Shown: positions 1-14,052 of the stretch, piece by piece
Layout: each line of letters starts with the position of its first letter
How positions within the stretch are numbered: position 1 is the first letter of the stretch
DNA from: Granulicella sp.
GTDB taxonomy: Bacteria > Acidobacteriota > Terriglobia > Terriglobales > Acidobacteriaceae
Assembly: GCA_003133205.1 (NCBI GenBank)
Contig: PKWK01000249.1
Location: forward strand, 1 to 15,249
Direction: 5' to 3'
Length of the DNA stretch: 15,249 nt
Notes under the pieces: model-generated
Seen by the model: the letters and a program-made list of their open reading frames with translations, nothing else
Database searches by the model: none
Told to the model about the DNA's origin: nothing
Program-made: the position numbers and the translations under genes

Positions 1-56
1 GCGTCAAGTAAATACCCCTATCGTCTTTTGATGTTGGCGTTGTCCGTCCTTTTTGC

Positions 57-82
57 TTGTCATTCCCGAAGGGAATCCCCTT
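57..82. repeat. dispersed GTCATTC-type repeat with small hairpin
   Basis: A TTGTCATTCCCGAAGGGAAT sequence contains the perfect inverted repeat ATTCCC-gaa-GGGAAT (62-76). The same GTCAT(T/C)C(C/T)...-G-GA opening occurs twice more in the window, inside the Fe-S oxidoreductase gene, so it looks like a degenerate member of one dispersed family. On the minus strand it lies just beyond the deaminase gene and its heptamer array, and could act as a weak terminator hairpin. There is no clean T-tract next to the stem. Confidence 0.5.
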
Positions 83-94
83 TGCCGCCTTTAC

Positions 95-118
95 TTACCA
101 CTGACCACTCGCCACTCT
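95..118 (-). repeat. short heptamer array after the deaminase stop
   Basis: Read on the minus strand, directly after the TAG stop of the deaminase, are about three to four degenerate heptamers: AGTGGCG, AGTGGTC, AGTGGTA, then a decayed unit. They share the unit (A)GTGGTCA with the long array at 3759-3832 and the one at 657-702. No hairpin forms from the units themselves. Function is unknown. Confidence 0.65.
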
Positions 119-559
119 CTACTCCCCAATATCCTCGTTCCACACCTCAGGATGCGCGGCAATATACCCCGCCAACAACTCCCGGCAAGCCTCCGACTTG
201 AGGTCCACCACCTCCACCCCAGTCTCCCGCAGCCAGTCGATCCCGCCCTGGAACGTCTCGCTCTCGCCCACAATCAGCCGCCCGAATCCGAACTGCCGGA
301 TCAGCCCCGAGCAGTACCAGCACGGCGCCAGCGTCGTCACCATCGTCATCTTGCGATAGCTCCGCTGCCGCCCTGCCCGGCGGAACGCGTCCGTCTCACC
401 ATGCGCGCTCGGATCGCCTTCCTGCACCCGACGATTGTGCCCCGAGCCGACCAGCCGCCCGTCCGCGCCAAACACAGCCGCACCAATCGGAATTCCACCC
501 TCCGCAAGCCCGGCGCGCGCCTCTGCCAGCGCCACCTCCAGCATCTCCGCGTCGTTCAC
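119..559 (-). CDS. cytosine deaminase, yeast Fcy1-like
   Basis: A CDA-fold zinc-dependent deaminase of about 146 aa that probably hydrolyses cytosine to uracil and ammonia in pyrimidine salvage, in the cytoplasm. Visible motifs are HGE (His53 zinc ligand, Glu55 proton shuttle) and PCWYC (Cys80 and Cys83 zinc ligands), giving the one-His two-Cys zinc site. From memory, the EGGIPIG start region, the GRLIVGE segment after the zinc site and the terminal W-x-EDIGE closely match yeast Fcy1 (158 aa), which favours cytosine deaminase over TadA or guanine deaminase. I chose the GTG at 559 because GAGG lies 8 nt upstream. An upstream TTG at 592 is possible but has no spaced Shine-Dalgarno. It lies 145 bp after scpB on the same strand and ends in TAG followed by heptamer repeats. 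The substrate is inferred, not proven. Confidence 0.85.
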   Translation of the reverse strand: MNDAEMLEVALAEARAGLAEGGIPIGAAVFGADGRLVGSGHNRRVQEGDPSAHGETDAFRRAGRQRSYRKMTMVTTLAPCWYCSGLIRQFGFGRLIVGESETFQGGIDWLRETGVEVVDLKSEACRELLAGYIAAHPEVWNEDIGE

Positions 560-639
560 AGTCGAACCCTCGTGCCCCACGTCGAACCACAAACCTCAAA
601 CCATCCGGATTGTCGGCGGTGGATGCGTCCCCGGCTTGC

Positions 640-657
640 GCAGCGAATCATCGCTGC
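640..657. repeat. hairpin between scpB and the deaminase gene
   Basis: A perfect 7-bp inverted repeat GCAGCGA-4 nt-TCGCTGC lies just beyond the heptamer array that follows scpB in its direction of transcription. It could form a transcript hairpin, but no U-tract follows, so a terminator call is not supported. Confidence 0.45.
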
Positions 658-702
658 ACTGACCACTCACTTACCACTGATCACTTACCACTTACCACTC
701 GC
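657..702 (-). repeat. heptamer array after the scpB stop
   Basis: Starting about 2 nt after the scpB TAG stop, the minus strand reads GTGGTAA, GTGGTAA, GTGATCA, GTGGTAA, a truncated GTGA, GTGGTCA and a decaying unit. It is the same heptamer family as at 95-118 and 3759-3832 but more diverged, with TAA variants. It is followed by the hairpin at 640-657. Confidence 0.75.
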
Positions 703-704
703 CT

Positions 705-1805
705 CTATTCGCCGCTCTGGATCTCTGCTTCCTCAGCCGACGTGTTATCCGCATCGTCTGCAGCGTAGTTCGGCGGCAGCGACGACAGCCGCCCATCCAC
801 CGAAGCCTTGTCTTCGCTGGAAACGTTGTCCGCAGGTGCGCTCTCCTCGTCGACGGGCGCATACGCCTCCGTCTCCGGCCCTAGCTCCTCCGCCACGGTC
901 TCGGATGCGCTCGGTGCCGGCTGGTCGTGATCGCTCATCGCAATCTCCTCCTGCTCGGCCATCTGCCCCGCCATCTTCTCGAACTCTTCGATGCTCGGCA
1001 GCTCAGTCACGTCCTTCAGTCCAAACTTGATCAGAAACTCCTTGGTTGTCTTGTACAGAATCGGCCGCCCGATAACCTGCTTGCGCCCCGCGGTCGTAAT
1101 CAGCTTCCGCGCAATCAGCGAACCCAGCACGCCGCTCGAGTCCACCCCGCGAATCTCCGAAATCTCCGGCGACGTGACCGGCTGCTTGTACGCCACCACA
1201 GCCAGTGTCTCCAACGCCTGCAGCGTCAGCTTCAACGGCGGCTTCAGCGACTTCACAAACCCGCGCACCGCATCGTGATACTCCGGCTTGGTCGCAAATC
1301 GGAACCCGCCCGCAACCTCGCGAATCTCCAGACCACGCTCCGCATTCGCATAGTCCGCGACCAGCTCGTTCAGCATCTCGCGAAAGTACGCGCGCAGCCT
1401 ACCCGCCCGCACCTTCTCAGCGCGCGCCGCAGCCGCATCCGGAACTTCGTCCACCTGCTTCGGCAAATCAGCGGCCGCATCGGGCTCGCCACCATCAGGT
1501 GGCTCTGCCGCAGTCGCCTGCTCAGTTGCCCCAGCGACGCCACCGGCTGCCAGGGAACCCGCTTCTTCCGGCGAGACCGAATCCTCGCCCCCCGCAGCTT
1601 CAACCGAATCAGAGTCAGGCTCCGGCAGCGCTACCGTGTCCGCGGCCGCTTCAAGCTCCGCCTCAAGCAAGAGCGTCTGCTGTGCCGCGGCCGCCCGGTC
1701 CAACTCCGCTTGCGCCTCTTCCCCTAGCAGGCCCACCAGTTGCGCCAGCGTTACCGGCTCTTCCGACGCATAAATAACAGCTTCAATCTTTGCTTTCAGG
1801 CTCAT
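705..1805 (-). CDS. scpB: segregation and condensation protein ScpB, enlarged
   Basis: ScpB is a winged-helix (kite) subunit of the bacterial SMC-ScpAB condensin. It dimerises and binds ScpA to gate the SMC ring during chromosome segregation. The first about 30 residues (SLKAKIEAVIYASEEPVTL) are the usual ScpB start. Residues 136-265 carry the rest of the fold, including TLQALETLAVVAYKQPVT, SPEISEIRGVDSSGVLGSL and the GRPILYKTT segment. The usual family length is about 180-220 aa, but this is 366 aa. An Ala/Glu/Pro-rich, strongly acidic stretch (about residues 31-132) is spliced between the first helices and the long helix of the N-terminal winged helix, and an acidic tail of about 75 residues follows residue 290. 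The ATG is the only good start, since an in-frame TGA lies four codons upstream; its Shine-Dalgarno is weak. scpA lies about 2 kb upstream on the same strand, separated by a PiT gene. Confidence 0.93.
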   Translation of the reverse strand: MSLKAKIEAVIYASEEPVTLAQLVGLLGEEAQAELDRAAAAQQTLLLEAELEAAADTVALPEPDSDSVEAAGGEDSVSPEEAGSLAAGGVAGATEQATAAEPPDGGEPDAAADLPKQVDEVPDAAAARAEKVRAGRLRAYFREMLNELVADYANAERGLEIREVAGGFRFATKPEYHDAVRGFVKSLKPPLKLTLQALETLAVVAYKQPVTSPEISEIRGVDSSGVLGSLIARKLITTAGRKQVIGRPILYKTTKEFLIKFGLKDVTELPSIEEFEKMAGQMAEQEEIAMSDHDQPAPSASETVAEELGPETEAYAPVDEESAPADNVSSEDKASVDGRLSSLPPNYAADDADNTSAEEAEIQSGE

Positions 1806-1865
1806 AAATGTCAGTCATAAGCATACCAACCCAGCGACCTGTGCGCTCGAAACAAGAATCCAAAG

Positions 1866-1903
1866 TCTCTGATCGGTGCTCGTTGGTGTTTATCGGTGTT
1901 AAG
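1866..1903. repeat. degenerate ATCGGTGTT-type intergenic repeat
   Basis: Between the PiT stop and scpB, units ATCGGTGCTCG, TTGGTGTTT and ATCGGTGTT follow each other at 9-11 bp spacing. On the minus strand they read AACACCGATAAACACC and similar. This resembles a family of intergenic repeats of the AACACCGATGAACACCGAT type found in many environmental bacterial genomes (recollection, not searched). The 114 bp PiT-scpB gap holds no other feature I can support. Confidence 0.55.
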
Positions 1904-1919
1904 CCTTTTCCACAGCCAC

Positions 1920-3527
1920 TCACCGTGCCAGCGTGTTGAACACCCAGAACAACCCACCCGAAAGCAGCGCCGCCGCCGGCAGCGTAAACAGCCAGGCCGC
2001 CCCGATGTTGCGAAGCGTCGCCCGCTGCAGCCCACTCCGGTTCGCCGCCATCGTCCCCGCCACGCTCGAGCTCAGCACATGCGTCGTCGACACCGGCAAG
2101 CCGTATATGCCCGCCCCGAGAATCGTCACCATCGCGACCAGTTGCGCCGAAGCACCCTGCGCATACGTCATGCGCGTCTTGCCAATCTTCTCGCCCACCG
2201 TCACGACGATTCGCCGCCACCCAATCATCGTCCCCAGCCCAAGCGCCAGCGCCACCGCAACCTTCACCCAGGTAGGAATGAACTTCGTCGATTTGGTCAG
2301 GAAGCCCTGGTAGTCGGTCAACACTGCGATGTCCGCTTCCGACATCGACGGCCCGCCGCGTTTCGCCATCAACTGCAGCGTCTCGCTCGCCAGGTACATC
2401 TGGTTCCGCACATTCGCATGCATCCCCTGCGGCACACCCGCCAGCGTCCCATACTCAACCGCCTCGTTGCGGATGTTGAGCACCATGTCACGCAACGCCA
2501 CAATCACGCCCGGCTCATACTCCTTCGTGCTGACGAAGTTCTCCAGTTCCTTCCCAGCGTCCGGCGGATCAACGCTCGGATCCACATAGTGATCCAACAC
2601 GCCGGCCGCCTGGGTCGACGCAACCGCGAACGTCTGTACCTGGCCCGCACCCATCGCGTGGTTCAGCGCATACGCCGTCGGCACCGTGCCCACCAGGATC
2701 AGCATGATCAGCCCCATGCCTTTTTGCCCGTCATTCGATCCATGCGCGTAGCTCACTCCGCCGCACGTCAGGATCAACAGCGCCCGAATATACAACGGTG
2801 GCGGAGCCATTCCCTTAGGAGCCTCAAACAGCCGTGGGTCCCTCGCCACAAACTTGAACACCAGAAACACCAGCGCCGCCACGCTGAATCCCACCAGCGG
2901 CGAGATCAGCAACGCCTTGAAAACCTTCTCGACCTGCTCCCAGTCCACCCCAGCGGTGCCCGACTTCCCCTGCATGATCTGGAACGTAACACCCACACCC
3001 AGGATCGAACCAATCATCGTGTGCGAGCTCGACGCCGGCAGCCCCCGGTACCACGTCACCAGGTTCCACAGGATCGCCGCCACCAGCAGCGCAAAGATCA
3101 TCGCAAAGCCCGATCCCCTGTCCGCCTTCAAGATCAGTTCCACCGGCAGCAGCGAGATGATCGCAAAGGCCACTGTCCCCGAGCTCAGCAGCACGCCCAC
3201 AAAATTCAGAATCCCCGAATAGACGACTGCAACATGCGGATCAAGAGAGTTGGTGTAAATCACTGTTGCAACAGCGTTCGCCGTATCGTGAAACCCATTC
3301 ACAAACTCGAACCCAAGCGCAATCACCAGCGCCAGCCCAAGCAGAAGATACGGAACCAGGCTCACATTGTGGACGACCGAGAGGTCTCCCCAAAGTTGAG
3401 CGGCGATGTAAATCACCCCACCCGCAAGCAATAGTGCAAAAACGGCTTTGCCAATGATTCCGGGAGATGAATTCTTCAGCTCTTCATCGAGAATCGTGGG
3501 CTGAGGCAGTGTGGCAGGCGTAGCCAA
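1920..3527 (-). CDS. PiT-family inorganic phosphate transporter
   Basis: Low-affinity inorganic phosphate permease of the PiT family (Pit/PHO-4), normally a metal-phosphate:proton symporter of the inner membrane. At 535 aa it is near PitA size (about 500). Inverted-repeat signatures are visible: NGFHDTANAVATVIYT (77-92) with the SSSHTMIG segment (166-173), and SYAHGSNDGQKGMGLI (259-274) with GLPVSTTHVLSSSVAG near the C-terminus. About ten hydrophobic segments alternate with a roughly 130-residue soluble central loop (about 305-435). The TTG start at 3527 has AGGTGA four nt upstream, and no ATG occurs before the first signature. No PhoU-like (DUF47) partner gene adjoins it, unlike many PiT genes. 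It sits between scpA and scpB, with about 310 bp of upstream DNA that probably holds its own promoter. Confidence 0.93.
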   Translation of the reverse strand: MATPATLPQPTILDEELKNSSPGIIGKAVFALLLAGGVIYIAAQLWGDLSVVHNVSLVPYLLLGLALVIALGFEFVNGFHDTANAVATVIYTNSLDPHVAVVYSGILNFVGVLLSSGTVAFAIISLLPVELILKADRGSGFAMIFALLVAAILWNLVTWYRGLPASSSHTMIGSILGVGVTFQIMQGKSGTAGVDWEQVEKVFKALLISPLVGFSVAALVFLVFKFVARDPRLFEAPKGMAPPPLYIRALLILTCGGVSYAHGSNDGQKGMGLIMLILVGTVPTAYALNHAMGAGQVQTFAVASTQAAGVLDHYVDPSVDPPDAGKELENFVSTKEYEPGVIVALRDMVLNIRNEAVEYGTLAGVPQGMHANVRNQMYLASETLQLMAKRGGPSMSEADIAVLTDYQGFLTKSTKFIPTWVKVAVALALGLGTMIGWRRIVVTVGEKIGKTRMTYAQGASAQLVAMVTILGAGIYGLPVSTTHVLSSSVAGTMAANRSGLQRATLRNIGAAWLFTLPAAALLSGGLFWVFNTLAR

Positions 3528-3576
3528 GGATCACCTAACTTGAAATGCTGCTCCTCAGCCAAGCTACGCCATTCAC

Positions 3577-3594
3577 ACGCCAGAAATGTTACAG
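3577..3594 (-). promoter_or_regulatory. possible Pho-box-like direct repeat upstream of PiT
   Basis: On the minus strand, CTGTAAC and CTGGCGT stand 11 bp apart, start to start, about 50 bp upstream of the PiT start. Known PhoB boxes are two CTGTCAT-like half-sites with 11 bp periodicity. Spacing fits, but only 11 of 18 positions match the E. coli consensus, so this is a weak, context-driven candidate. Confidence 0.22.
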
Positions 3595-3712
3595 CCCCGT
3601 GAAAGATTCACCCTTCCCCCGCTGAAAAACAGGTCCATTACCCGACCTAAATCCCAAATCCTCATGGGTTTACGTCACGCCGCCGCTTCCGCGCAAATCA
3701 ATTCCAAGCAAA

Positions 3713-3745
3713 GGCGAATATCGCCCACCTAAACCGAATATCGCC
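3713..3745. promoter_or_regulatory. paired CGAATATCGCC direct repeats, possible operator
   Basis: CGAATATCGCC occurs exactly at 3715-3725 and 3735-3745, a 20 bp offset of about two helical turns. The first copy extends to the hyphenated palindrome GGCGA-ATA-TCGCC (3713-3725). The pair lies between scpA and PiT, about 190 bp upstream of the PiT start. The same-face spacing suits a dimeric regulator, but no regulator is identifiable. Confidence 0.35.
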
Positions 3746-3758
3746 ACAAACGGAGCAT

Positions 3759-3832
3759 CTGACCACTGACCACTGACCACTGACCACTGACCACTGACCA
3801 CTGACCACTGACCACTGACCACTGACCACTGA
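3759..3832 (-). repeat. perfect heptamer tandem array after the scpA stop
   Basis: Ten exact copies of CTGACCA plus CTGA on the plus strand; in scpA orientation the unit is GTGGTCA or a rotation of it. The array starts 5 nt after the scpA TAG. Because 7 and 3 share no factor, each 21 nt (three heptamers) spells the same seven codons in any frame (V-V-S-G-Q-W-S). In scpA orientation it contains no stop, while the opposite strand meets TGA once every 21 nt in every frame. It shares its unit with the diverged arrays at 95-118 and 657-702. The perfect homogeneity suggests recent expansion by slippage. Confidence 0.95.
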
Positions 3833-3837
3833 AAATC

Positions 3838-4851
3838 CTACCGCCAGTCGTCCCGCGCCTGCGCCTGTTCCGCAAACACCCGATCGAAGTCGTCCGTCTT
3901 TTTGATCAGAATGTCGCCCAACTGATTCGGCTGGTGCAGCAGCACCGCCTGCAATCGCACCAACTCCAGCATCGCCAGAAACATACAGATCAGCGCCCGC
4001 TCCGAATGCGTGCTGTGCAGCAATCGCCGCAAGCTCACTGGCCGGTCCTCCATCAGCAGACGCCGTTTCACGTAGTCGATCATCTGCGCGACCGTCACCG
4101 CCTCCTCGTCCACGTTCAGCACAGGCCGCTCGCGAAGCCGCTGCAACACTTCCTGGAACACCCGCACCAGGTCGACCGTATCGGCCGCAATCTCCTGCTC
4201 CATCCCAGCGGCCGCACCTTCGTTCCCCGCCTGTTCACGCAGGAACTCGCGCATCCCAGGCTTCGACCACGTCGCCTCTTCGATCTGCTGTTTCTGCCGC
4301 AACATCTGCGCGGCCGCCTTGAACCGCTCATGCTCCAGCAGTCGCTCCACCAACTCTCGCCGCGGGTCTTCTGCATCCGCCCCCGTCACATCCGAAGGAT
4401 CGCGCGGCAGCAGCGTCTTCGACTTGATGTGGATCAGCAGCGACGCCATGTAGATAAACTCGCCCGCCGCATCCACGTCCGTCTGCTTCAACTGGTGGCA
4501 GTAGTCCAGAAACTGCGCCGTGATCAGCGCAATCGGAATGTCGTAGATATCGATATTCTGCTTGCGGATCAAGTCCAGCAAAAGGTCCAGCGGCCCGTCG
4601 TACACCTGCCCCACCGTAACCGAAAACGGCGACTGCGAAGCCTCTTCCTTCCCCGCATCCTTAGCCGCCCCACCGCTACCGCCGCGCTTCGGCTCCGGCA
4701 CCGGAGCAATCACCGGCCCCGGCCGCAACGCAAACGGCTCCGCCACCGGCGCAAGCACTTCGTCGGCCGCAGCGGCAGAGCCCGTCGTCTCCGGCGTCTC
4801 AGTGTTCCCGTTCTCCTGTATCTCTTCGTGCATCCGGCTCTCTTCGTTCAT
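3838..4851 (-). CDS. scpA: segregation and condensation protein ScpA
   Basis: ScpA is the kleisin of SMC-ScpAB condensin and bridges the SMC head and neck, with ScpB bound to its middle. The core begins near residue 76 with FSVTVGQVYDGPLDLLLDLI, followed by DIYDIPIALITAQFL and FIYMASLLIHIKSKTLLP, all typical of the N-terminal helical domain. The C-terminal winged helix covers about 250-325 (ALICMFLAMLELVRLQAVLLHQ). At 337 aa it is longer than the usual roughly 250 aa because of a Pro/Ala/Glu-rich N-terminal extension of about 75 residues that is probably disordered. The ATG overlaps the trpS stop as ATGA (4848-4851), so the two are translationally coupled. A later start near residue 75 would give a family-typical length, but the coupled ATG is favoured. 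It ends in TAG next to the heptamer array. Confidence 0.94.
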   Translation of the reverse strand: MNEESRMHEEIQENGNTETPETTGSAAAADEVLAPVAEPFALRPGPVIAPVPEPKRGGSGGAAKDAGKEEASQSPFSVTVGQVYDGPLDLLLDLIRKQNIDIYDIPIALITAQFLDYCHQLKQTDVDAAGEFIYMASLLIHIKSKTLLPRDPSDVTGADAEDPRRELVERLLEHERFKAAAQMLRQKQQIEEATWSKPGMREFLREQAGNEGAAAGMEQEIAADTVDLVRVFQEVLQRLRERPVLNVDEEAVTVAQMIDYVKRRLLMEDRPVSLRRLLHSTHSERALICMFLAMLELVRLQAVLLHQPNQLGDILIKKTDDFDRVFAEQAQARDDWR

Positions 4852-11982: not shown

Positions 11983-14052
11983 GTGAATCTCGCCGAGCCT
12001 CAGCACTTCGCCCTGTTCGAGATCGGCCTGCTGCTGGTCCTCGCCTGCACTTCCGCCGTGCTCTTTTTCCTCCGCTTCGCGCCCATCCTCCGCAACATCC
12101 TCACCGCGCGCAAAGACCTCGGCTTCTCGCTGTCTCCTATCCCACGCCGAATCCGAGACTTCGTCTGGGAAGTCCTCTGCCAATCCAAGGTCATCCGCGA
12201 ACGCCCACTTCCCGGCATCGCCCACGCCTTCGTCTTCTGGGGATTCCTCGCCTTCGCCCTCGTCTCCCTCAACCACCTCGCCATCGGCCTGCGCCTCGCC
12301 TTCCTTCCGCCCGATAGCCTCATCGGCCGCTTCTACTTCCTCTTCGCTGCGATCTGGGCGCTGCTCGTCGCCATCTCCATCACCGCGCTCTTCATCCGCC
12401 GCTTCTTCGTCCGCCCCATCTGGCTAGGCAAGAAAGTCTCCTACGAATCCGGCTTCATCGCCCTGCTCATCTTCCTCCTGATGACCACCTATCTCGCCAC
12501 CTTCTTCACGGTCGACGAGACCACCCTCAAAGCCCTCTGGTGGACGCACACTCTCGCTCTGCTCGTCTTCCTTCCCCTCATTCCGCACACCAAACACCTC
12601 CACCTCGTCCTCTCGCCCATCACCATCTTCCTCAAGCGCGACGGCTTCTCCGCGATCCCACCGCTCTGCACCGACGAGAATGTAGAAGACTTCGGCCTCA
12701 CCGCAGGCCGCGACCTCACCCAGATCATCGCGCTGCAAGCCTATAGTTGCGTCGAGTGCGGCCGCTGCACCGAACACTGCCCGGCCTCCGCCACCGGCAA
12801 AGTCCTCAACCCCAAAGAAATCATCCTCGGCACCCGCACGTACCTCAACACCTTCGGCCCTCACTCCGAAACCCCACTCCTCACCGAGTTCCGAACGTCT
12901 GAGAACACGCCCGCCTCTTTGTTGTCATCCCGCAGCGCAGCGGAGGGATCTGCTTCTCCCGCCCCCAACCACTTCTCCCTCGAGGCCGCCTACGAATGCA
13001 CCACCTGCGGCGCATGCGAGTTTCAGTGCCCCGTCGGCATTCAGCACCTCCCAATCATCATCGGCCTGCGCCGCGGAGCCACCAACACCGGCGCATGGGA
13101 AGACTCTTACGGCACCAAGCTCTTCCTCGCGCTCGAAAAATCCGGCAACTCCCTCGGCCTGCCCGCGTCCGAACGCGACAAGTTCATCGCCCGCGCGCAG
13201 CTCCCCATCTTCGACGGGACACAGGAATACTGCCTCTGGCTCGGCTGCATGGGCGCCTACGATCCGCACGGCCGCGAGATCATCGCCGACTTCGCCCGCG
13301 TCATGGCGCACCTCGGCACCACCTTCGGCGTTCTCAAGAAAGAGAAGTGCACCGGCGACCCCGCCCGCCGCCTCGGCAACGACCTCGTCTTCCAAACCCT
13401 CGCCGAATCCGGCCTGCAAACCTTCGCCGCGCAGAAGGTCCAAAAGATCGTCGCCATCTGCCCCCACTGTGTCCGCACCATCGCCAACGACTGGCGCGAC
13501 TTCGGCATCGCCCCCGAGATCGAACACCACAGCGAATTCATGGCCCGCCACAAATCCCGCCTGCCCTCCCCACAAAGTATTGTCCCGCCCCAAAGTATTG
13601 TCATTCTGAGCGAAGCGAAGAACCCCCGTATTTCGCCCGGCGAGCCACCACCGCCCGCAGCCTCAACCCAACCCGCTCAGGCCTCGGAAACCGTCGTCTA
13701 CCACGACCCCTGCTACCTCGGCCGCTACCAGAGCATCTACGACGAGCCCCGCGCCGTCATCCAGCAACAAGCCACCCTCGTCGAAGCCCCGCGCAACCAC
13801 GAGCGCAGCTTCTGCTGCGGAGCCGGCGGAGGACTCGCCTTCCTGGGCGAGGAAACCGGCGAACGAGTCTCCCACGTCCGCGCCCGCGAACTAGCCGCCA
13901 CCGGCGCCAGCACCGTCGCCACCGCCTGCCCCTTCTGCAACACCATGTTCCGCGACGCCCTCACCGCCATCTCCGGCGATGCCACCCCACCCCAACTCCT
14001 CGATATAGCCCAACTAACCGCCCGCAGCCTGCCGCCGACGGACGTCCCGTAA
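11983..14052 (+). CDS. membrane Fe-S oxidoreductase, EtfD/EMO-like
   Basis: Probable electron-transfer flavoprotein:menaquinone oxidoreductase or related membrane heterodisulfide-reductase-like protein, 689 aa. Residues 1-210 form a NarI-like domain with about five helices and candidate heme-b histidines (His81, His98, His189, His202 and neighbours). Two [4Fe-4S] ferredoxin motifs follow: Cys256-259-262-266 and Cys339-342-345-349. Two cysteine-rich CCG domains come next. The first (Cys422, then C456TGDPARR, Cys493, Cys496) is the degenerate form usual in this family. The second (Cys577, Cys611-612, Cys649, Cys652) fits C-x33-CC-x36-CxxC. Linkers at about 312-325 and 530-552 look like translated dispersed repeats. 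The GTG start has no Shine-Dalgarno and lies 27 bp after a small membrane-protein gene, so coupling is likely. No etfAB lies nearby, so the ETF role is inferred from architecture. Confidence 0.88.
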   Translation: MNLAEPQHFALFEIGLLLVLACTSAVLFFLRFAPILRNILTARKDLGFSLSPIPRRIRDFVWEVLCQSKVIRERPLPGIAHAFVFWGFLAFALVSLNHLAIGLRLAFLPPDSLIGRFYFLFAAIWALLVAISITALFIRRFFVRPIWLGKKVSYESGFIALLIFLLMTTYLATFFTVDETTLKALWWTHTLALLVFLPLIPHTKHLHLVLSPITIFLKRDGFSAIPPLCTDENVEDFGLTAGRDLTQIIALQAYSCVECGRCTEHCPASATGKVLNPKEIILGTRTYLNTFGPHSETPLLTEFRTSENTPASLLSSRSAAEGSASPAPNHFSLEAAYECTTCGACEFQCPVGIQHLPIIIGLRRGATNTGAWEDSYGTKLFLALEKSGNSLGLPASERDKFIARAQLPIFDGTQEYCLWLGCMGAYDPHGREIIADFARVMAHLGTTFGVLKKEKCTGDPARRLGNDLVFQTLAESGLQTFAAQKVQKIVAICPHCVRTIANDWRDFGIAPEIEHHSEFMARHKSRLPSPQSIVPPQSIVILSEAKNPRISPGEPPPPAASTQPAQASETVVYHDPCYLGRYQSIYDEPRAVIQQQATLVEAPRNHERSFCCGAGGGLAFLGEETGERVSHVRARELAATGASTVATACPFCNTMFRDALTAISGDATPPQLLDIAQLTARSLPPTDVP
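12919..12958 (+). repeat. dispersed repeat inside the Fe-S oxidoreductase, insertion 1
   Basis: TTGTCATCCCGCAGCGCAGC and the following GGAGGGATCTGC match the GTCAT(C/T)C...GAGCG-AGCG-A-GGA-TCTGC type of dispersed intergenic repeat. It is read in frame as residues about 313-325 (LLSSRSAAEGSAS). It lies in the loop between the two ferredoxin clusters, where extra length is tolerable. Confidence 0.6.
13573..13640 (+). repeat. dispersed repeat inside the Fe-S oxidoreductase, insertion 2
   Basis: GTCATTCTGAGCGAAGCGAA followed by GAACCCCCG is a nearly canonical copy of the dispersed repeat, read in frame as IVILSEAKNPR (about 539-549). Just before it, CAAAGTATTGTC is duplicated at 13573-13584 and 13591-13602, an 18-bp in-frame offset producing QSIVPPQSIV. 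The insert sits in the linker between the two CCG domains. Confidence 0.7.

Follow-up and report, generated by a model that had tools for sequence, protein, structure and literature searches.

The window analysed here is a 15,249-base stretch from Granulicella sp. (contig PKWK01000249.1), in which three minus-strand genes, a deaminase gene, scpB and scpA, are each followed by a tandem array of a 7-nt unit. These heptamer arrays, and similar arrays in related acidobacteria, are the subject of this report. The features of the locus, with genes assigned from Pfam, are as follows.

58..80, minus strand: small palindrome GGGGATTCCCTTCGGGAATGACA, beyond array 1 and only loosely belonging to it
93..124, minus strand: array 1, degenerate, units GAGTAGA, GAGTGGC, GAGTGGT, CAGTGGT and AAGT; overlaps the deaminase stop codon
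119..592, minus strand: cytidine/deoxycytidylate-type deaminase gene (PF00383), TAG at 119-121
640..657, minus strand: short hairpin GCAGCGATGATTCGCTGC, directly beyond array 2
657..702, minus strand: array 2, degenerate, units AGTGGTA, AGTGATC and AGTGGTC, with one 4-nt phase break
705..1805, minus strand: scpB (PF04079), TAG at 705-707
3759..3832, minus strand: array 3, 10.6 copies at 100% identity, sense unit CAGTGGT, without an inverted partner array in the window
3838..4851, minus strand: scpA (PF02616), TAG at 3838-3840

All three arrays are real, and they are the only period-7 arrays in the window at a threshold that 100 first-order Markov shuffles of the window met 0.09 times on average. 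Doublets of the form AGTGG..AGTGG, counted on both strands, occur 12 times compared to an expectation of 0.02. Each array lies directly 3' of a stop that reads CTA on the plus strand, all three share one orientation, and the gap from stop to array is approximately 0 nt for the deaminase gene, 2-5 nt for scpB and 5 nt for scpA. An earlier note on this DNA had described this arrangement, and it stands, except that the first array spans 93-124 rather than 95-118; the note was also right that the scpA array is perfect and the other two diverged. In array 1, the period-7 similarity extends through the deaminase stop codon itself (GAGTAGA GAGTGGC GAGTGGT CAGTGGT), and the phase break of array 2 has the sequence CACTCACT. 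No Rfam family matched the window at gathering scores.

The closest relatives of the ScpA protein belong to Granulicella and other Acidobacteriaceae, the best at ~82-83% identity, and arrays of this kind recur among them. Three tandem copies of GACCACT, with up to 3 mismatches, are present in 11 of 25 relatives (55 matches in genome G022, 27 in G023 and 24 in G003), and CAGTNNN repeated four times was found in 78 of 150 genomes from the family of G023 and in 58 of 199 from its phylum. The flavour of CAGTNNN varies by genome (CAGTTGT, CAGTAGC, CAGTTCT, CAGTCCT), and G003, a Granulicella genome, holds further arrays of GGAACAG, CAACCAG, AGGTTCG and other units. The reversed-pattern control for the CAGTNNN counts is imperfect, since CAGTNGT arrays themselves contain GTCA at 7-nt intervals. 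Some genomes of the phylum sample gave very high numbers of matches (645 in G267, 630 in G367 and 789 in G256), and in G256 the reversed-pattern control was equally high, at 821. The predominance of the 7-nt period is apparent in 975 kb of unselected DNA, where 16 arrays of period 7 were found compared to 1, 5, 0 and 3 for periods 5, 8, 10 and 11, respectively. We also noticed by eye period-8 arrays of the AGCGAGTC type in the post-stop place of the heptamers in G070 (L148, ~16.4 kb; L149, ~18.4 kb). Behind scpA itself, a period-7 array starts within 70 nt of the stop in 3 of 80 relatives compared to 0 of 1600 random places. These arrays are of different types (L074, a distal arm, CAAGGGC type; L077, CAGTTGT; L080, TAGTATT), and the site therefore bears a different heptamer in distant members and none in most relatives.

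Placement and polarity were determined in two samples: unselected stretches of G070, G145 and G150, genomes that were themselves picked as array-rich, and array-selected stretches (L091-L145), chosen for holding GACCACT matches. Genes were called with a simple open reading frame (ORF) model of our own that was not benchmarked, in which stops are surer than starts and some calls span arrays. The earlier note had proposed testing related genomes for placement behind stops and for strand bias, and both were seen. Within 40 nt after a stop, CAGT/AGTG doublets stood in the sense orientation in 13 cases and reversed in 0 (714 stops, unselected), and in 48 and 7 cases, respectively, in the array-selected stretches (726 stops); around the 80 scpA loci such doublets were rare (2 and 1 at 997 stops). 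Within 40 nt before a start, the inverse, ACTG/CACT, outnumbered its reversed form by 17 to 4 in the array-selected stretches (741 starts) and by 2 to 0 in the unselected ones (718 starts). Among unselected spacers of at least 20 nt, the codirectional class held heptamer doublets or arrays in 15 of 323 cases, the convergent class in 10 of 117 and the divergent class in 1 of 121 (Fisher p 0.025). Divergent spacers contained none of the 16 unselected period-7 arrays, and called coding sequence contained 1 of them.

A common layout in the relatives would account for both positions: a stop, a CAGTNNN array, a loop, an inverted NNNACTG array and then the next gene. In G022, G003 and G023, respectively, doublets 0-20 nt after stops were 13, 5 and 39 for CAGT versus 0, 0 and 3 for ACTG, and those 40-80 nt after stops were 1, 0 and 1 for CAGT versus 9, 4 and 18 for ACTG. 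Of the 36 array-bearing stops tabulated for relatives, 14 received a flag for an inverted distal arm, and the flag misses some arms visible by eye (L116, L105). Two-armed spacers fold down to -73 kcal/mol. The two arms also match in the order of their unit variants, with an identity of 450/513 in register versus 576/760 when shifted by 7. The in-register fit was better in 16 of 19 hairpins, and in 7 of 10 cases an arm fitted its own partner better than it did any of the genome's other loci. These results suggest that the two arms mirror each other's variant order. Since an inverted pair reads CAGT first on either strand, the fixed orientation is what such a pair predicts, and the orientation rule need not be a signal.

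To follow such elements through one genus, we used a single gene pair of G022. The search covered 45 genomes and yielded spacers from 42 rows; two of these (L220 and L245) are the same locus, leaving 41 distinct loci in 40 genomes. Heptamer arrays were present at 23 loci and a TCATCC-type palindromic element at 13, with both at 2 and neither at 7, while mononucleotide-shuffled versions of the spacers gave 0.06 on average. The arrays belong to about six unit families, with units including CAGTGGC, CAGTTGC, TAGTGGT, AGGGGTT, CGAGTAC, GACTAAC and ACTGAGA. Thus, the period persists at this orthologous spacer while the unit sequence turns over. Our literature search, which left subscription journals mostly outside, found no match for such turnover with fixed period and free unit. 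In G022, which has a CAGT hairpin, and G172, which has the TCATCC element, the upstream and downstream flanks are 94% and 91% identical, respectively. The (ACTGAGA)n arrays of L213, L225 and L235 lie near the start of the next gene, on its ribosome-binding site, and look like a multiplied GAGAACT ribosome-binding-site sequence that grew in place, because several array-free species have one copy of that sequence (GAGAAACTGA). At L208, L209, L216, L220, L230, L233, L234, L236 and L237, among others, a TGTCATCCTGAG...CAGTCGAAGGA palindromic element occupies this orthologous spacer, in the place taken by heptamer hairpins in sister species.

The period, placement, polarity, inverted pairs and different fillings of one orthologous spacer observed here are best explained, we believe with a confidence somewhat short of even, by heptameric repeat elements that are made at the level of DNA and tolerated in gene-end spacers. 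Under this explanation, the window arrays would be acidobacterial heptameric tandem repeats that settle in such spacers and lengthen or shorten in 7-nt steps through slippage during DNA replication. Hairpin templating would let each arm copy the other, and an element that has lost an arm would show either CAGT close to the stop or ACTG close to the start of the next gene. The elements would survive mainly where the harm is small, above all behind stop codons. We infer slippage, arm copying and tolerance rather than function from the patterns described above. A related account, doubtful but quite possible, is that a process stepping by 7 nt rebuilds arrays from local sequence at the edges of gene-end spacers, with period and place fixed and the letters free. 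If true, some enzyme or replication step would work with a heptanucleotide footprint and favour transcript ends. Why the unit is seven becomes a testable question, as sister genomes that fill one spacer with different units serve as natural replicates.

Several observations weigh against tolerated DNA-level elements. The window holds no inverted partner arrays, so that all three of its arrays are single arms, whose descent from pairs is conjectural. The arm comparison took the best-scoring register, which favours mirrored arms, and the spacer-edge pairs of L222 and L229 are not complementary. Heptamers behind scpA are rare in relatives (the 3 of 80 noted above), and the recurrence of CAGT over many genomes exceeds what a purely local origin predicts. 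Divergent spacers were not depleted in the array-selected stretches (8 of 108 versus 43 of 467 others), and in G023 alone 5 of 35 held doublets; exclusion from promoters therefore rests on the unselected sample only. Several of these selected divergent spacers measure 300-1800 nt, and genes may have gone uncalled in them. Finally, while the post-stop polarity proposed earlier extends to the relatives, placement outside genes is not strict, with arrays inside called genes in 8 of 21 cases in G003, 1 of 18 in G022 and 1 of 28 in G023. Two of those in G003 (L119, ~15950; L120, ~12154) are truly internal, within long called genes that have solid coding signal on both sides, and the other six are near gene ends or in calls weakly supported by coding score.

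The main rival of the DNA-level explanation, possible but rather unlikely in our estimation, is a role in RNA, whereby a structured tail behind the stop would shield the 3' end of the mRNA or delay the ribosome at termination. The G/U-rich sense array would fold on itself or pair with the distal arm, in a manner likened to the hairpins of repetitive extragenic palindromic (REP) sequences in E. coli. Consistent with this, and again at odds with DNA-level repeats, the sense strand is rich in G+T in 35 of 46 proximal arrays, and self-folding of long perfect arrays is seen mainly in the sense RNA. The window scpA array alone reaches -25.9 kcal/mol as sense RNA (z -4.1, via G.U pairs; 0 of 200 shuffles as good), an idealised CAGTGGT x10 reaches -25.4 versus -3.1 for its complement, and a 13-copy CAGTTGG array of G150 reaches -35.7 versus -4.1. 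Over the 46 proximal arrays, among which one locus is counted twice (L077 = L134), the sense-RNA fold was better in 26, worse in 14 and tied in 6, and spacers with a fold z below -2 were more frequent in convergent than in divergent position (14/22 versus 1/22 in G070; 4/10 versus 1/7 in G145). Several unit families (CAGTAGT, CAGTCCT) do not fold as sense RNA, the window's array 1 shows no fold (z -0.47), and some array-bearing orthologous spacers (L222, L223) have a fold z above 0. Moreover, no RNA-level selection on two-armed stems was found by either of two comparisons, each based on small numbers: mismatches in 20 stems were G.U in 16 cases versus A.C in 12, no clear excess of G.U, and in 41 orthologous spacers the sense fold was better than the antisense fold in 18 and worse in 23.

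Transcription termination by the two-armed forms appears improbable to us, even though these forms are suitably placed for it and convergent spacers are the richest class in the unselected sample. A TTTT run within 12 nt after the distal ACTG arm was found in 5 of 30 cases in codirectional spacers (L094, L100, L145 twice and L075) versus 800 of 20172 background 12-mers (p 0.006), which weighs against the DNA-level explanation, but the other 25 arms lack such a run. The window arrays are single-armed and coincide with no terminator-like site (GC hairpin plus T run); positions 1-4200 hold 3 such sites where shuffles gave 2.9, and one of the 3 lies ~110 nt past the scpA array on its strand. The T runs in the relatives amount to a weak terminator-like sign.

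The earlier note had also suggested a mobile heptamer, of which the part that survives is that the contents of the spacer vary widely from one species of a genus to another. That the arrays are the ends of a true mobile element, with the heptamer arms as terminal inverted repeats and a transposase such as a REP-associated Y1 enzyme moving it in trans, seems to us improbable. The quite different fillings of one spacer in the close species G022 and G172 would fit mobility, as would the correlation between counts of Y1_Tnp and of CAGTNNN x4 over 150 genomes (Spearman 0.35, with genome size and relatedness not corrected for). Y1_Tnp was above the cut-off in 132 of these genomes. However, G160 has 83 CAGTNNN x4 matches and zero Y1_Tnp, G137 has 126 and 2, and neither a core sequence nor a length is constant among the spacers inspected. 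We also considered, and rejected, that arrays are permitted by loss of the hairpin nuclease SbcCD, as the trend in the phylum runs the wrong way, with CAGTNNN x4 arrays in 11 of 24 SbcD-bearing genomes versus 47 of 175 without SbcD. Within the acidobacterial family of G023, just 3 of 150 genomes have SbcD above the curated cut-off, versus 8 of 14 controls.

The earlier note had pointed to the shared TAG stops of the window and to readthrough that would append the array as a repeat peptide. We consider such readthrough exceedingly improbable. The perfect unit is indeed open in every sense frame, with TGA in its complement, but the two diverged window arrays contain TAA or TGA in sense, and the frames of scpB and the deaminase gene reach a stop within 8 codons past the TAG, so that only scpA reads through its array. 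Other post-stop unit families carry sense stops as well (TTAGTGG, AGTGGTAA). Nor did the link with TAG hold: array-linked stops were TAG in 19 of 61 cases versus 902 of 2376 other stops, a count in which the few scpA-set loci that belong to sampled genomes enter twice. In G003 (L111-L125), array-linked stops were TAA in 10 of 13 cases versus 40 of 205 others, which was seen in this one genome only. The idea that the arrays serve as stop cassettes in all frames was discarded as a general rule because two post-stop units of G003, GTTGCTG (L119) and CTGTTCC (L118), lack a stop on both strands, and a general link with the palindrome GGGAATGACA was likewise discarded, as it was found at only 1 of 13 array-bearing G003 stops.

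Elsewhere in the window, a gene for a PHO4-type phosphate transporter lies at 1920-3527, between scpA and scpB; at L002, L069 and L070, unlike in the window, an scpB-like start lies closely 3' of the scpA stop. A sequence resembling a dispersed repeat, GTCATTCTGAGCGAAGCGAAGAA, is found at 13600-13640, in the ORF at 11983-14052. It is in frame within a 689-amino-acid Fe-S/CCG-domain protein, where it encodes VILSEAKNP just upstream of the CCG stretch (residues 571-657).

Tandem heptamers have been described in other bacteria. Long simple sequence repeats have 7-nt units as their commonest class in most genomes, with an origin in polymerase slippage proposed (via PMC4679880); the acidobacterial arrays share this predominance of period 7, and the portion of that paper drawn on gives no acidobacterial case. 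Our literature search gave no description of acidobacterial heptamer arrays among the titles and starts of abstracts that were listed, with subscription journals mostly outside its reach, which makes it weak evidence of novelty. REP palindromes also lie at gene ends, some within 15 nt of the stop, and are reported to stall ribosomes in E. coli (PMC12306157). In contrast to the arrays here, which are tandem heptamers of differing unit families, REP sequences and bacterial interspersed mosaic elements are single short palindromes with a conserved core, present in many near-identical copies, REP measuring 20-40 bp (PMC3733652).

The TAACTGA direct repeats of Beggiatoaceae, Cyanobacteria and Bacteroidetes are mainly start-proximal in the BOGUAY genome, where related heptamers are rarely repeated (MacGregor 2015, PMC4679880). 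They have an ACTGA core, comparable to ACTGACC in the window, and ACTG is the reading that faces starts; a reversed set of seven in Flexibacter litoralis directly follows a stop, as the window arrays do. The window unit CAGTGGT, or ACCACTG, is not exactly TAACTGA, and the window arrays follow stops rather than preceding starts, although the ACTG arms of the relatives do face starts.

The closest known system is that of the heptamers GGGAATC of Xanthomonas and GGGGA(C/T)T of Nostoc, which are over-represented in non-coding DNA (Rehm et al. 2015, PMC4692102). Most copies lie either 0-50 bp past a stop, on the coding strand, or 0-50 bp ahead of a start, on the non-coding strand. The same report describes convergent inverted GGGAATC pairs, 70 in Xcc and 75 in Xac, and the repeats are not bound to a single class of genes. 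The arrays described here likewise consist of a tandem 7-nt unit in intergenic DNA, in the window and in relatives, and all three in the window begin within 50 bp after a stop on the coding strand. Inverted pairs are absent from the window and were flagged at the 14 stops in relatives given above. The differences lie in the unit: GTGGTCA, as it reads in the window, lacks the GGG of the G-rich, quadruplex-forming type, several units occur per genome, and the unit family changes between species at one spacer. The heptamers of Xanthomonas, Nostoc and Beggiatoaceae have so far been explained separately, as quadruplexes or translational regulators. The acidobacterial data suggest one common layout, with an arm behind stops, its inverse before starts and a free unit sequence, and the acidobacterial arrays are a variant of the layout known from the Xanthomonas GGGAATC repeats.

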